Shown in pieces: positions 13,586-30,319 of a stretch of DNA of 32,857 bases. Origin of the DNA: Bdellovibrio sp. CG22_combo_CG10-13_8_21_14_all_39_27 (GTDB lineage Bacteria > Bdellovibrionota > Bacteriovoracia > Bacteriovoracales > Bacteriovoracaceae); assembly GCA_002786715.1 (NCBI GenBank), contig PCTW01000023.1:1244-34100 (forward strand), given 5' to 3'. The notes beneath the pieces were generated by a model. The model was not told the origin of the DNA. It did no database searches and saw only the letters and a list, made by a program, of their open reading frames with translations. A program made the position numbers and the translations under genes. Position 1 is the first letter of the stretch, and each line of letters opens with the position of its first letter.

Positions 13586-13882
13586 ATGAACAAGAAGATC
13601 ACATTTAAAGAATTTGCAATATTTATACAAGTCGGCAAACCCGATGATGCCGCCATGGCGTTGTCAGTTATTCTTGATCTAGACGATGATGTCGCTGAGA
13701 AGGCCACTCAGTTTTTTATTTCAAGATTAAAAGAAGATTCTAATATGTTTGCAAAACTTATGAATTTAAGAATTCAGGTCGAACAATCAGAGAACTCTGC
13801 TATGCAAACGCTTATGGAATGCTTTGACTTTTCTGGACCTCAATTAATCGAAGCTATGCACGTTTTAAAAACAATTGTTTAG
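13586..13882 (+). CDS. Small hypothetical protein
   Basis: This is a 98-residue acidic, all-helical-looking protein with no signal peptide and no cysteine pattern. The repeated Ala/Leu/Asp helices (for example DDAAMALSVILDLDDD) suggest a HEAT/ARM-type or helical-bundle domain, but I do not recognise the family. It follows the desaturase by 5 bases, probably in the same transcript. Its last four bases overlap the end of the convergent 936-residue gene. Confidence 0.7.
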   Translation: MNKKITFKEFAIFIQVGKPDDAAMALSVILDLDDDVAEKATQFFISRLKEDSNMFAKLMNLRIQVEQSENSAMQTLMECFDFSGPQLIEAMHVLKTIV

Positions 13883-16689
13883 TACGATAAGTCTGTACCC
13901 AGAAAGAATCCATAGACTCCCTTATTGGTTTTCATCTTATAAGAATAGCGAATTCCGAAATTCAAGGGAAGAATTCTGAAAAATTTAGATTCGAATTCCA
14001 ATTCAGCGCCATAGCTGTTGAGAGTGTCATTTCGAAATCGAGATTCAATTCTGGTGCTATCAAAGAAGAGAGTTGAAGTCAGTCTTCTCAAATAGGTAAA
14101 TCCACTAATCGCAAGATCGGGATAAGCTAGTGGGAATAGGTAATTTCCAGAGATTTTATTAAAACGTGAAACTGCCGCGTAGCTGTAGCCGCGAGAAAAT
14201 GCATATCCTTGAGCGCTACTAGCATTAGAAACAAATTGATAAGCAGTTCTAGTGTCTTTTTGTTTTTCCGTCGTATAAGAAAATAAAAAACCATCGTTGT
14301 TAAAGAAACCAGGAGTTGTTGCTTTGGTAAAACCAAAAAAACGATAAGAAGAATAGGCTTTGTTTTTAGAACTGTCAGCATCATCATAGGCCATAAGTAA
14401 GCTGAAGGAAATTGGAGACTGTATTGATCTTGGTTTGAGATCCTTCGCGATTGTAAAACCCATTGCTCCACTTTTTACTTTAAACGATCGACTTTCATAC
14501 TTAATATTAACATTCGTTTCATTGTAATCACTTGTATCTAAGTAACTCATACCGCCTTGAGCGTAAGCTTTGAGAGTATAAAGACCTCTTCCATAGATAT
14601 AGGGAATCGTCATATTGAGACCGACATCTTTTTCAGTAAACTCTAGGTCATTGGGGTATGAGTAAGGTTCTACTGAACGTTCTCTCGATTCAGCATTAAT
14701 ATTGAAAATAGGGTAGTATTTTTTAATATCAAGGCTGAAGCTTCCATAATTTTTTTTCTCTTCAGAGTCTCTGCCAATTGCACCTCGAATTCCAAGAGTC
14801 CCGAGATAATTGTCAGTTACAGCTGAGAGCTCTAAACCACGTCCTCCAAAAAAATTCCATGAGTGGGGAATAAATAACCGAGAATCGAAATGACCATAGT
14901 TCTCAGCTTGATATTTATCTTTATTTTTTGTGTAAAGCTCCGTTTGATTATCAAAAGATTGTAGAGGAAATTGGTTGTAATTATCAGAGGGAGAGTCGCT
15001 TAAATAATTAAAGTCCACAAGGGCTTGAGAGGAGATAGAGCTACATTTACTTACTGGTACACTTGAAACGTGTGATCCGTAAGAATCTTGTTCACTAAAA
15101 TATAATGTGTTCCCGTCTGAGAAAGGTGAAGCTGCTCCAATCTTAACATTGGTACACTGTTCTAACTTGTTAGCATTGAGACGAAAGATATTGATATAAC
15201 CTTTGTATTGGGCTTCGAAGAAGATACTTCCTTTTGAATCAACACTTAAGGCATATATATTATTACGAGATGAAGGTAAAAGAACTTGAGATGAGTGATT
15301 TGTTAAATTTATTTTTTGAATTGATTTAAATCCTCTTTTGTCATTGAGAATCGCGACAACTTCATTATCAGTAAGATAGTGAGCTTCACTTACTTTATAA
15401 TCTTTCATATGAATTTCTCTTAGCGTGTTACCACTAAGGTCGAGTTCGACTATGTTCCATTGCTGATTTTCATTAAAATGAGTACTTATTATTTTATCAG
15501 CACGGGAATTGAGATGAGGGTTGTAGTATCGCTCTTGGTCGGTAATTTTTGTTTTATCTCCAGTGTTTAGCTCCACAAGAAAGATATTAGATGCTCCACG
15601 ATATCCATAGCGATGGTGGGGTTGAAGTTCTGTATAGACTGCTTTGCCTTTGGAGACACTAAACTGATTAAATTCTTTATAAAAGGGAAGATCAAGAATC
15701 TTTTCGGTTGAGACTGCCGATTTTTTTTGGATTGACCAGTAATCTTCTAGATCTTTGTGTAAATAATAAAAAGAATCACCATCTTTTTGAGGATAAAGGT
15801 TTTCTCTAAACTCAATCTTTGAAATTTTTGTGGAACTATCATTCTTCCAAGTGTTCTTGAGTTCATTCATTGTTTCTTGATAGAATTCAAAAAAATCAAC
15901 GCCAGAAATTTCTTTAAACGCAGAATAGAATCGCCATGGATGAGGTGATCCAATAACCTCTTGAACAACCTTCGCCCAGAAATTCTGACCAAACTTTTTT
16001 GTTGCACTTGAAATTAATATGTAGCCATAGACATAATGGCTTGGAAGTTGGGTATGATATGTACCATTAACAAACTGTTCGTAACTAGGAATTTCGTCAC
16101 TTAAAATAAGGGATTTAAGTCTTGCCAGAAAGTAGGGGGATCTTCCTCGACCAGCGTCGGTATATTTGGTCTCCGCCCAAACAGCATCACCTTCTAAAAA
16201 CCAAGGTTGTAGGCCCGTATAAAGTACAATTTGTCGCCCGTAATCACCGAAAAGAAGATTGGCAATACTGACAAATCCGCCATCATAGAAATCGAATTGG
16301 TTAACATGTCTGTATTCATGGATTGCTAGTGTCTGATACCATTCTGAACTTCCAACAAAGTTAGAAAATGAAGAGGAGCTAAACCACTCACTTCTTCTTG
16401 GGCCCATCGTTACGAAACCGTTTGGTGCAGCGACTTCGGGTCTTATGATCAGCGTAAACTGTTGAGGCTTTGCGATAGAATAGGTTTGTCCAACATATTG
16501 TGAATAGTGTTCAATTAAATTGGCCACATAAACAGAATCATTTTTCATATAGTCAGGATAAATGAGTTTTACATAATCATTAGAAATGGTCTTCCATTCC
16601 AATGACGATGAGCTTTGATTGGTGTCCAAGCCTTGGCAATAGACTTTCATTGTTACAAGTAAGCTCAAAGAGAAGATGAACATTTTCAT
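13879..16689 (-). CDS. Peptidase-MA-like / beta-propeller / outer-membrane barrel protein
   Basis: A signal peptide (about residues 1-18) is followed by a gluzincin-type head. His124-Glu125-x-x-His128 lies in LAIHEYRHVNQ and Glu166 in WFLEGDAVWAE, the order expected of peptidase MA-like domains. Residues 300-580 show TolB/WD40-like propeller repeats. The last 320 residues alternate polar and aromatic residues as in a beta-barrel, ending in a terminal tyrosine (LGTDLSY), as expected for outer-membrane insertion. An AAGGA site lies 6 bases before the ATG. The likely place is the outer membrane, with a zinc-peptidase and propeller on one face. It could handle surface proteins. Function is inferred only. 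Confidence 0.85.
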   Translation of the reverse strand: MKMFIFSLSLLVTMKVYCQGLDTNQSSSSLEWKTISNDYVKLIYPDYMKNDSVYVANLIEHYSQYVGQTYSIAKPQQFTLIIRPEVAAPNGFVTMGPRRSEWFSSSSFSNFVGSSEWYQTLAIHEYRHVNQFDFYDGGFVSIANLLFGDYGRQIVLYTGLQPWFLEGDAVWAETKYTDAGRGRSPYFLARLKSLILSDEIPSYEQFVNGTYHTQLPSHYVYGYILISSATKKFGQNFWAKVVQEVIGSPHPWRFYSAFKEISGVDFFEFYQETMNELKNTWKNDSSTKISKIEFRENLYPQKDGDSFYYLHKDLEDYWSIQKKSAVSTEKILDLPFYKEFNQFSVSKGKAVYTELQPHHRYGYRGASNIFLVELNTGDKTKITDQERYYNPHLNSRADKIISTHFNENQQWNIVELDLSGNTLREIHMKDYKVSEAHYLTDNEVVAILNDKRGFKSIQKINLTNHSSQVLLPSSRNNIYALSVDSKGSIFFEAQYKGYINIFRLNANKLEQCTNVKIGAASPFSDGNTLYFSEQDSYGSHVSSVPVSKCSSISSQALVDFNYLSDSPSDNYNQFPLQSFDNQTELYTKNKDKYQAENYGHFDSRLFIPHSWNFFGGRGLELSAVTDNYLGTLGIRGAIGRDSEEKKNYGSFSLDIKKYYPIFNINAESRERSVEPYSYPNDLEFTEKDVGLNMTIPYIYGRGLYTLKAYAQGGMSYLDTSDYNETNVNIKYESRSFKVKSGAMGFTIAKDLKPRSIQSPISFSLLMAYDDADSSKNKAYSSYRFFGFTKATTPGFFNNDGFLFSYTTEKQKDTRTAYQFVSNASSAQGYAFSRGYSYAAVSRFNKISGNYLFPLAYPDLAISGFTYLRRLTSTLFFDSTRIESRFRNDTLNSYGAELEFESKFFRILPLNFGIRYSYKMKTNKGVYGFFLGTDLSY

Positions 16690-28118: not shown

Positions 28119-28943
28119 ATGATTAACCCCAACCATCTTAAATACTTCTACGACTCTTGCTCTTTTAATAGCGTTTCAAAGGCTGCTGAAGTCAATAAGG
28201 TGTCCCATTCGGCAATAAGTCATGCGATTAAATCAATTGAAAACCAACTCAATGTAGAGCTTCTCAAGCACGGGAAGAAGAAATTTGAGCTGACGGAGCA
28301 AGGAAAGACCCTCTTTCAGCATTCCAATCAGCTCTTTGATAGTTTTGAAATCTTGAAGAACGCCCTGAGCTCAGATTCAATAGAGCTCAGCGGACAATTA
28401 AAACTAGGACTCTCGCACTCAACTTCGATAGGATTTATGAACGATTATATTGGTCGATTTGTAAATCTTCATTCTCAAATCGAACCAAGAGTTATGATTG
28501 GAAACTCAAAGTCACTTGAGCTTCTCTTGAATTCGCGCGAGATAGATTTAGGCTTTGGTCTCGAAGATGGAAGCTTGGCCCAATTTGAAAGAAAATCTCT
28601 ATTGAAAGGTCGCTTTGTTTTAGCTGCTTCTAAGAGATATAAAAAAGGGGATACATTTATTGTGGGCGATAAAGGTTTTGAAATTACTGCTCTTAATGAT
28701 CACCACCGAAAGCTTAAAAAAAGGGTTCATACTATAGTCGTTCAAAGTTGGGCCATTAGTGCTGACCTGGCTCAAGACGGAGTAGGGGTGGCGCTTATTC
28801 CCGATTTTGTATTGGCGAAGCATAGAGACAGTCTGGTTCAAGTCATGAGCGAAGTGCGATTACCCAAGTATGATCTTTGCGCCTTTTATCGTTCCTATAA
28901 TGCCTTATCTCCTGTCGCCAGAAAGTTTTTGAGTGACTTTTAG
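28119..28943 (+). CDS. LysR-family transcriptional regulator
   Basis: The 274-residue protein has an N-terminal winged helix (SFNSVSKAAEVNKVSHSAISHAIK at about residues 16-39, then ENQLNVELLKHGKKKFELTEQGK) and a C-terminal periplasmic-binding-like effector domain ending near residue 270. The effector domain is slightly shorter than usual for the family (about 290-300). It probably controls the divergent secreted-protein gene and itself. No clear ribosome site precedes the ATG. Confidence 0.9.
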   Translation: MINPNHLKYFYDSCSFNSVSKAAEVNKVSHSAISHAIKSIENQLNVELLKHGKKKFELTEQGKTLFQHSNQLFDSFEILKNALSSDSIELSGQLKLGLSHSTSIGFMNDYIGRFVNLHSQIEPRVMIGNSKSLELLLNSREIDLGFGLEDGSLAQFERKSLLKGRFVLAASKRYKKGDTFIVGDKGFEITALNDHHRKLKKRVHTIVVQSWAISADLAQDGVGVALIPDFVLAKHRDSLVQVMSEVRLPKYDLCAFYRSYNALSPVARKFLSDF

Positions 28944-28974
28944 TCCTCACTTGATTCTTTTTTCTTTTTCAATT

Positions 28975-29040
28975 ATGATGGCCAGTATGAGTATTGAATT
29001 CTTCAACTCTATTCAAGTTTCACTTTTCACCACCCCTTAG
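28975..29040 (+). CDS. Putative leader peptide of the threonyl-tRNA synthetase gene
   Basis: A 21-codon ORF with two ATGs at 28975 and 28978 (a third in frame at 28987) ends ...TTC ACC ACC CCT TAG. So two threonine codons stand just before proline and stop. This matches an attenuator leader peptide for a threonine-related gene. No strong ribosome site is seen, which lowers confidence. The stop lies in the hairpin ACCCC-TTA-GGGGT (29032-29044). Confidence 0.5.
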   Translation: MMASMSIEFFNSIQVSLFTTP

Positions 29041-29133
29041 GGGTTATTCATTTTTTTGAGTCTCTAAAGACTCGATTCAAAATATTTAATTTTTAATATA
29101 AATCCATTCAAAGGTTTAACCTTTTGAATTTTT
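29032..29133 (+). promoter_or_regulatory. Attenuator with competing hairpins before thrS-like gene
   Basis: Hairpins are ACCCC/GGGGT (29032-29044), GAGTCT/AGACTC (29058-29073) and the terminator-like 29106-29129. TTTTGAGT (29054-29061) can pair with ATTCAAAA (29075-29082), and ATTCAAAA can also pair with TTTTGAAT (29122-29129), the 3' arm of the terminator. So two folds exclude each other. The SD GAGG (29138-29141) follows. Confidence 0.6.
29106..29133 (+). terminator. Intrinsic terminator-like hairpin in the leader
   Basis: ATTCAAAGG (29106-29114) pairs with CCTTTTGAAT (29120-29129) with one bulged T, followed by five Ts. It is 14 bases before the ATG of the synthetase gene, so it can stop transcription before the gene. 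Confidence 0.55.
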
Positions 29134-29146
29134 AATTGAGGTTTTT

Positions 29147-30319
29147 ATGAAAAACGAATTCGATCATCGAGTTCTCGGGGCGAAGTACGACTTATTCTCT
29201 TTCTTTGATGAGGGACCGGGATTTCCCGTTTGGCATGATCATGGATTGAGAATTAAAAATGCATTGATTCATTATTGGCGAAACGTGCACAAAAAAAATG
29301 GCTATAAAGAAATAGAGAGTCCTCTTTTGCTTGATAAAGAACTATGGAAAATTTCTGGTCATTGCGATTATTTCGAAGAGAATATGTTTTTTTCATCCGT
29401 GGAAAAACGAGACTTCGCGATCAAGCCCATGAGCTGCCCTGGAGCAATACTGCTTTTTAAGCAAAAGAAGCGTTCTCATGCAGAATTGCCACTGCGATTT
29501 TGCGAGCTAGGACACGTACATCGCAATGAGAATTCAGGATCGCTTCATGGCTTGCTGCGAGTGAGATCTTTCGTTCAGGATGATGCCCACATCTTTTGCC
29601 GTGAAAGTGATCTTCTTTCTGAGATCAAATCCATTATCTCTCTCATTAAGGAGATTATGCAGCATTGTGAATTAAGTGATTTCCACTTTGAGCTATCGTC
29701 AAGAGGAGAAAATAAGGAATCTTTCTTGGGTAATGATCAAGAATGGAAAATGGCAGAAGATAAGCTTAAGCAAGCCGTTTCAGAATCTGGATATCAATTA
29801 ATCGAAAGACCTGGGGAAGCAAAATTTTATGGACCTTCACTCGATCTTCATATTAAAGACATTCACGGAAAAAATTGGCAGTGCTCTTCTATTCAACTCG
29901 ACTTCAACCTTCCCAATCGTTTTAAGCTTCATTACTTTGATGAACACCAAAAAAAACAGGTTCCTTATATGATCCATCGAGCGATCTTTGGTTCACTCGA
30001 GAGATTTATTGCCATTCTCCTTGAAAATTTTGGTAAGCGTTTACCTCAATGGATGCATCCCGTGAGATTTAAGATTCTCTCTCTCTCAAGTAAAGAGGCT
30101 GACTATGTGAAGATTATTGCTTCAAAACTTAGAGAACAAAGTATTAACTTTGAAGTTGATTTAAGTGAACTTCCGCTCAAAGAAAAGTTAAAGAAATGTT
30201 ATGGTGAGTGTGTCCATTCAGTCATTATAGTAGGAGGAAAGGAAAAGGCTGAGCAAAAAATTGTTATAAAAGAATTAAAAAGTGGTGAAGAAAAAAGCAT
30301 TTGCTTGAACGAATTATAA
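29147..30319 (+). CDS. Threonyl-tRNA synthetase-like protein without TGS and editing domains
   Basis: The 390-residue protein is a class II threonyl-tRNA synthetase core. Motif 1 region: ESPLLLDKELWKISGH; motif 2: LRFCELGHVHRNENSGSLHG; motif 3: HRAIFGSLERF. The three zinc ligands are kept: Cys in MSCPG, His in QDDAHIFC and His in YMIHRAIFG. The C-terminal 90 residues form the anticodon-binding domain. It lacks the N-terminal TGS and editing domains of the usual 640-residue enzyme, which normally clear Ser-tRNA(Thr). It may be a second copy, a resistance variant or a tRNA-like-modification enzyme. A leader attenuator precedes it. A GAGG site is 5 bases before the ATG. Confidence 0.9.
   Translation: MKNEFDHRVLGAKYDLFSFFDEGPGFPVWHDHGLRIKNALIHYWRNVHKKNGYKEIESPLLLDKELWKISGHCDYFEENMFFSSVEKRDFAIKPMSCPGAILLFKQKKRSHAELPLRFCELGHVHRNENSGSLHGLLRVRSFVQDDAHIFCRESDLLSEIKSIISLIKEIMQHCELSDFHFELSSRGENKESFLGNDQEWKMAEDKLKQAVSESGYQLIERPGEAKFYGPSLDLHIKDIHGKNWQCSSIQLDFNLPNRFKLHYFDEHQKKQVPYMIHRAIFGSLERFIAILLENFGKRLPQWMHPVRFKILSLSSKEADYVKIIASKLREQSINFEVDLSELPLKEKLKKCYGECVHSVIIVGGKEKAEQKIVIKELKSGEEKSICLNEL

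Follow-up and report, generated by a model that had tools for sequence, protein, structure and literature searches.

Results

The window, which here means the whole stretch of 32,857 nucleotides that we analyzed, carries on the plus strand (29147..30319, ATG start) a gene for an editing-less threonyl-tRNA synthetase (ThrRS) of 390 amino acids. The sequence-only reading had described it as a ThrRS core of 390 residues lacking both the TGS and the editing domain, and this was confirmed with Pfam, NCBIfam TIGR00418 and an alignment with the E. coli enzyme. The Pfam domains are tRNA-synt_2b (residues 85-295) and HGTP_anticodon (residues 310-390), and neither TGS nor tRNA_SAD has a Pfam match in the 390 residues. 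The protein scores 428 bits against TIGR00418 (thrS), for which the cut-off is 384, with a match that covers only profile positions 170-557 of 565, and its N-terminus aligns with residue 238 of E. coli ThrRS. All zinc ligands had been read as kept, and C334, H385 and H511 of E. coli are indeed found by alignment as Cys97 (29435..29437), His148 (29588..29590) and His277 (29975..29977), all on the plus strand. The catalytic residues are intact as well: R363, Q381, D383, Y462, Q479 and Q484 (E. coli numbering) are conserved, and K465 is replaced by Ser. When the 33 short forms found in the phylum (see below) were aligned, the three zinc ligands and the catalytic residues R363, D383 and Y462 were intact in every one; the N2 editing domain of bacterial ThrRSs is absent from the short form. 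Solved structures that were found by sequence as relatives are ThrRSs, many of them with chains of about 400 residues. A structure prediction made from eight sequences gave a mean pLDDT of 69, with part of the core below 50, and was not used.

The anticodon-binding domain (residues 310-390; 30074..30316, plus strand) is present, as had been claimed, but it is diverged and lacks residues that full-length enzymes keep. Its HGTP_anticodon score is 33 bits, compared to 70 bits for the full-length ThrRS of the same genome. N575 and R609, which we take to be residues that read the anticodon of tRNA(Thr), are kept in 1/33 and 6/33 short forms, respectively, and in 6/6 of the full-length enzymes compared, whereas E600 is kept in all 33 short forms. 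As the former two positions have mostly been lost, tRNA reading by the short enzymes may be different from normal, and recognition of tRNA(Thr) may be changed.

A second ThrRS, of 583 residues, is encoded in the same genome (4.08 Mb in 97 contigs, 99.8% complete), and the short gene is therefore an extra copy, as had been proposed. According to Pfam, the 583-residue enzyme has a tRNA_SAD domain and no TGS domain. Since TGS is missing from both ThrRSs of the genome, only the loss of editing is special to the short one. All four editing residues tested (H73, H77, C182 and H186) are present in the full-length enzyme. The idea of a paralogue would have failed if the short form were the sole ThrRS and editing had been lost clade-wide; this does not apply here, because a ThrRS with editing residues is also present. 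Free-standing editing proteins of the ThrRS/AlaRS type were not found: the only two tRNA_SAD matches of the genome lie in long frames, one of 599 residues, which is the full-length ThrRS, and one of 873 residues, which by its length would be AlaRS.

Upstream of the short gene, on the plus strand, a promoter-like sequence, TTGATT-N17-TATGAT (28951..28979), lies 7 nt before the ATG of a leader open reading frame (ORF) of 17 codons, MSIEFFNSIQVSLFTTP followed by a stop codon (28987..29040). The leader contains the tandem threonine codons ACC ACC at 29029-29034, and its stop codon, TAG, is at 29038-29040. Three hairpins can be drawn on this strand. H1 (ACCCC-UUA-GGGGU, 29032..29044) has the beginning of the stop codon in its loop and is followed by a U-rich stretch; H2 (UUGAGUCU-CUAA-AGACUCGA, 29056..29075) occurs at the same position with a different sequence in relatives; and H3 (TTCAAAGGTTTAACCTTTTGAA, 29107..29128), whose conservation was judged by eye, lies just upstream of the ribosome-binding site and start codon of the short gene (TTGAGGTTTTTATG, 29136..29149).

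A leader ending in threonines, typically 17 codons long, precedes all 33 short thrS genes examined. A fixed leader rule, which was drawn up only once the first leaders were known, matches before 32/33 short thrS genes (the one missed, in G253, has a leader with a GTG start) and before 0/65 full-length thrS genes, with 3 more of the latter skipped because of short flanks. It matches 0/1650 dinucleotide shuffles and 0/4 phage short thrS genes. In 32 leaders (G163 is left out of these counts), all threonines lie within the last nine positions, where they make up 96 of 288 residues, compared to none of 272 elsewhere; adjacent threonines are found in 30 and at least three threonines in 22 of the 32. 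Leader codons outside H1 also specify threonine, and these include ACT, ACA and ACG. The occurrence of proline and the position of the stop codon vary (TTR, TTL, ITH, TTPRG and other endings), whereas the threonines and the hairpin are constant, which argues that the threonines are not a mere by-product of the hairpin. In 27/32 leaders, a -10 element is found 4-9 nt upstream of the start codon, compared to 14% at random positions; 22/32 have both a TTG -35 and a TAnnnT -10 element, an arrangement seen at 2% of randomly chosen positions in the same DNA. This placement just before the start codon suggests that the leader ORF begins at or near +1 and is probably translated from a leaderless transcript.

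The leader also served to find further genes. Among 368 genomes of the phylum, 21 have a match to the pattern ACCACCCCNTAGGGGT, and none has more than one. Twenty of these matches precede a short (or broken or contig-cut) ThrRS gene, namely, 17 short genes already counted and 3 further ones that are short, broken or cut, and an earlier form of the pattern led to the first gene (in G102) of what is called group B below, when this group was not yet known. Beyond the 33 genomes, G177 (broken), G187 and G252 (cut by a contig end) were found through the leader. The remaining match, which we counted against the specificity of the pattern, is an orphan leader, MMKEIRHSFIHASTTTP followed by a stop codon, with a promoter-like sequence (G039:C83, 22680-22695, minus strand; L056/L134/L152). 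There is no ThrRS within 1.5 kb of it, and it looks like the relic of a lost short thrS gene.

The sequence-only reading had placed a threonine attenuator before the gene. Both a threonine-codon-rich end of the ORF and a hairpin over the end of the leader were found. H1 is present, by inspection, in all 33 short-gene leaders. H2 is present in 28/33, with 27 different stems starting 22-29 nt after the start of H1, and as a simple hairpin it is missing in 5/33. Its mean folding energy is -7.5 kcal/mol, compared to -1.4 for shuffles, which suggests that the pairing has been kept and the sequence has not. RNAalifold on a MAFFT alignment returned only two pairs because H2 is not aligned by sequence, and H2 was then tested per sequence. 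The 187-nt upstream RNA of the gene in the window folds better than shuffles (z -2.3). Directly after H2, no canonical terminator with a U-run was seen; there is one terminator-like match, formed by H1 and its U-stretch, where shuffles give a mean of 0.9. No conserved mutually exclusive (alternative) pairing was seen across the leaders. The sensor half of the putative attenuator is thus well supported by the leaders themselves and by the further genes that their pattern located, but the output half is not. A T-box leader of the thrS/thrZ type or another known RNA family was rejected, as Rfam gave no match at gathering scores in the window and no T-box-type fold in 28900-29200 up to an E value of 5.

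To survey the phylum, 368 genomes were searched with a thrS model, and the 48 with more than one match or with a lone short match were followed up. Only separate second genes were counted as short; contig-edge halves and split full-length genes (G214, G271, G363, G320, G307 and similar cases) and the broken gene of G177 were left out. Counted in this way, and with the genome of the window included, the short ThrRS occurs as a second copy, with a scattered distribution, in 33 genomes from 18 genera and four families of the Bdellovibrionota, of which the Bacteriovoracaceae are part: 14 genomes in f1, the window's family (14/129 genomes), 13 in f6, 1 in f16 and 5 in f20. A full-length thrS gene, or pieces of one, was also found in 32 of the 33 carriers, the exception being G163, a genome that is 77% complete. 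Several loci are duplicates of genomes in this set (L037, L038, L040 and L041 are G023, G164, G121 and G055, respectively, L041, from Bacteriovorax sp. BSW11_IV, being the same DNA as the copy in G055), and L039 stands for G163. In G177 (L129, L130, L160), the short thrS gene behind the leader is split in two, with some 390 kb between the parts and the C-terminal one on the opposite strand, as would be the case after an inversion (or through misassembly). In G180 (L108), the start of the short gene is out of frame with the remainder, and this copy may be decaying.

The closest relatives of the window's protein, with 45-68% identity, are likewise second copies of the short kind, encoded in genomes of the same family. 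A tree of 100 cores, made with a quick method, divides the short forms into two groups, A (10 sequences, including that of the window) and B (23 sequences), and full-length enzymes lie between the two. A constraint that unites all short forms was rejected (p-AU of 1.7e-5; a 35-row tree with 17/33 short forms, also made with a quick method). The phylogeny thus points to more than one origin of the short ThrRS, in at least two lineages, although long branches limit the trust that can be placed in the tree. The full-length ThrRS of G023 (L042/L048) falls within the group B branch, and the short one of this genome belongs to group A. In group A, K465 is replaced by Ser or Ala and A460 by Lys, and neither change occurs elsewhere among 42 aligned sequences. 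The window's protein is 37% identical to E. coli ThrRS and only 32% identical to its own full-length partner, and a recent duplication of the genome's own thrS gene was therefore rejected.

A phage origin was also rejected. ThrRS cores without TGS or editing domains, in frames of 389-398 residues, do occur on contigs of large phages and other viruses (L072, which is the same as L142, L073 and L074; contigs of 288 kb and 636 kb with an identical protein, and of 115 kb and 20 kb), but in the tree these group by themselves, close to E. coli, and they have no leader. Conversely, the leader pattern is found on 38 viral contigs, none of which has a ThrRS.

The neighbours of the short thrS gene in the window encode a LysR regulator, a protein without a family, an FMN_bind_2 protein and an ECF sigma factor. 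No neighbour family is common to more than 5 of 32 loci, and an operon or cassette was rejected on this ground. The gene of the LysR-family regulator (28119-28943) lies directly upstream in the same direction and is not conserved beside short thrS genes elsewhere. A 936-residue protein encoded at 13879-16689 of the window has a relative of 46% identity close to the short thrS of L043/L041, in another arrangement.

Discussion

The N2 editing domain is described as a part of bacterial ThrRSs (PMC4267643). Here, within one phylum, at least two ThrRS lineages that lack this domain have been retained as second genes, each behind the same threonine-codon leader. As far as genome comparison can tell, a conserved second ThrRS without proofreading, set behind such a leader, is real. 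What appears to be new is the combination of threonine-codon leader, promoter and hairpins before all 33 short genes and before none of the 65 full-length thrS genes. In the open-access literature, searched by titles and the starts of abstracts and including few subscription papers, we found nothing on a ThrRS leader or on an editing-less second ThrRS in the Bdellovibrionota. A core with only a tRNA-binding domain is also described for the yeast mitochondrial ThrRS (PMC4267643); that enzyme is mitochondrial, whereas the one described here is a bacterial second copy beside a full-length ThrRS.

We consider it probable that the short ThrRS is an inducible back-up threonyl-tRNA synthetase, with trans-editing by its full-length partner. 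The element before the short thrS gene is, as predicted from its sequence, a leader ORF with tandem threonine codons near the end and hairpins in the region of the stop codon, and regulation of the gene by the level of Thr-tRNA is most likely. When Thr-tRNA(Thr) is scarce, through a shortage of threonine or a failing housekeeping ThrRS, a ribosome would stall on the threonine codons of the leader and cover the 5' arm of H1, so that H1 would stay open and expression of the short gene would go up. When Thr-tRNA is plentiful, the ribosome would finish and leave, H1 and H2 would fold, and little of the short enzyme would be made; the hairpins may act through transcription termination, through translation or through decay. 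Once induced, the short enzyme would restore Thr-tRNA(Thr), and its full-length partner would clear misattached serine from tRNA(Thr) in trans, as in the T1/T2 pair of Anabaena. This proposal is supported by the SAD domain and editing residues of the partner enzyme and by the strict association of the leader with the short genes. It is weakened by the anticodon-domain positions that have mostly been lost and by the lack of a terminator after H2 and of alternative pairing in the leaders, together with the leaders in which H2 is absent. It is also weakened by the distribution of threonine synthase. No thrC match above the cut-off was found in the genome of the window, but thrC is present in 4/14 carriers and in 21/115 noncarriers of the family (Fisher p of 0.47). 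Carriers are thus not enriched for its absence, and threonine auxotrophy was rejected as the reason for carriage.

The proposed leader control resembles that of thrZ in Bacillus subtilis and of a hisS paralogue in bacilli. ThrZ is a full-length enzyme, and its gene is under T-box leader-RNA control that is linked to threonine starvation. It is therefore also a second ThrRS under leader-RNA control, but the leader there is a T-box and here a translated leader peptide. The thrZ gene is described as a leader-controlled second ThrRS gene in PMC3997798. In bacilli, a histidine leader peptide is described before hisZ and a hisS paralogue (PMC2965389). This is likewise an amino acid-codon leader before a synthetase paralogue, but it concerns another amino acid and another phylum, and it came to light through premature terminators, for which there is no clear counterpart here. 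The closest parallel for the editing part of our proposal is Anabaena, for which two ThrRSs are described (PMC4787780): the inducible T2 (thrS2) edits poorly, and Ser-tRNA(Thr) is edited for it by T1 subunits. The full-length enzyme in our genome, with its four editing residues, has what the partner in such a pair needs, and by analogy the Ser-tRNA(Thr) errors of the short enzyme are probably cleared by it. However, according to the same report, T2 has retained its editing domain in an impaired form, and low zinc induces it via Zur, whereas the short ThrRS has no such domain and most likely responds to Thr-tRNA. The loss of editing in a stress-induced synthetase may be tolerated through the trans-editing of a partner, or it may be useful in itself.

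Alternatively, the short enzyme may be an inhibitor-insensitive spare ThrRS that works when a borrelidin- or obafluorin-like inhibitor blocks the housekeeping enzyme, with the leader sensing the loss of Thr-tRNA; we think this unlikely. Extra ThrRS copies are described as having this role in obafluorin producers (ObaO; PMC11252418, PMC10619133). ObaO is also a second copy, but its gene is part of a biosynthetic cluster and its Gly463 is replaced by Ser, the change that is described as making it insensitive to obafluorin (PMC11252418). Neither is true of the window's ThrRS: we saw no such cluster in the window, there are no conserved neighbours among 32 loci, and Gly463 is unchanged in 33/33 short forms. 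Leu489, described as a site of borrelidin-resistance mutations (PMC4389257), is changed in 23/33 short forms, all of them in group B (Ser in 22/23, Gln in 1/23), but, like Gly463, it is unchanged in 10/10 members of the window's group. Gly459 is replaced by Ala in 33/33 short forms, and in the window's group Ala460 is replaced by Lys and Val338 by Ile, which would fit this alternative, but some of the substitutions are also present in full-length enzymes (Ala459 in that of G023 and Phe493 in that of the window's own genome). The comparison of inhibitor-contact residues thus did not find the published resistance markers in the window's group. Of the sequence-only reading as a whole, the extra copy and the threonine leader stand, whereas resistance of this copy to obafluorin or borrelidin is not supported and is kept here only as a rival.

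It is also conceivable, but quite improbable, that the paralogue has changed its RNA partner, so that it activates threonine and charges another set of tRNAs or another acceptor. The loss of N575 and R609 in most short forms, the low HGTP_anticodon score and the replacement of K465 in the window's group only would all agree with this, but E600 and the domain as such have been kept, and a leader of threonine codons fits an enzyme for tRNA(Thr) best. A more speculative view, for which we see only a slim chance, is that Bdellovibrionota switch deliberately to an error-prone ThrRS when threonine is exhausted. In that case, the leader would sense the missing Thr-tRNA, the editing-free enzyme would load serine as well as threonine onto tRNA(Thr), and the substitution of serine for threonine would keep translation going; if true, the loss of editing would have been selected, which could explain two separate lineages behind the same leader. 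Hardly any credence can be given to an ordinary decaying duplicate with no role of its own, which would suit the scattered presence in the family and the damaged copies of G180 and G177 but not the intact zinc and motif residues, the open frames kept at 45-68% identity within the group or the leader conserved across four families.

The leader is an RNA element without an Rfam match, as searched here, and would be a convenient reporter of Thr-tRNA status in predatory bacteria; the carriers are some of the relatives of such bacteria.
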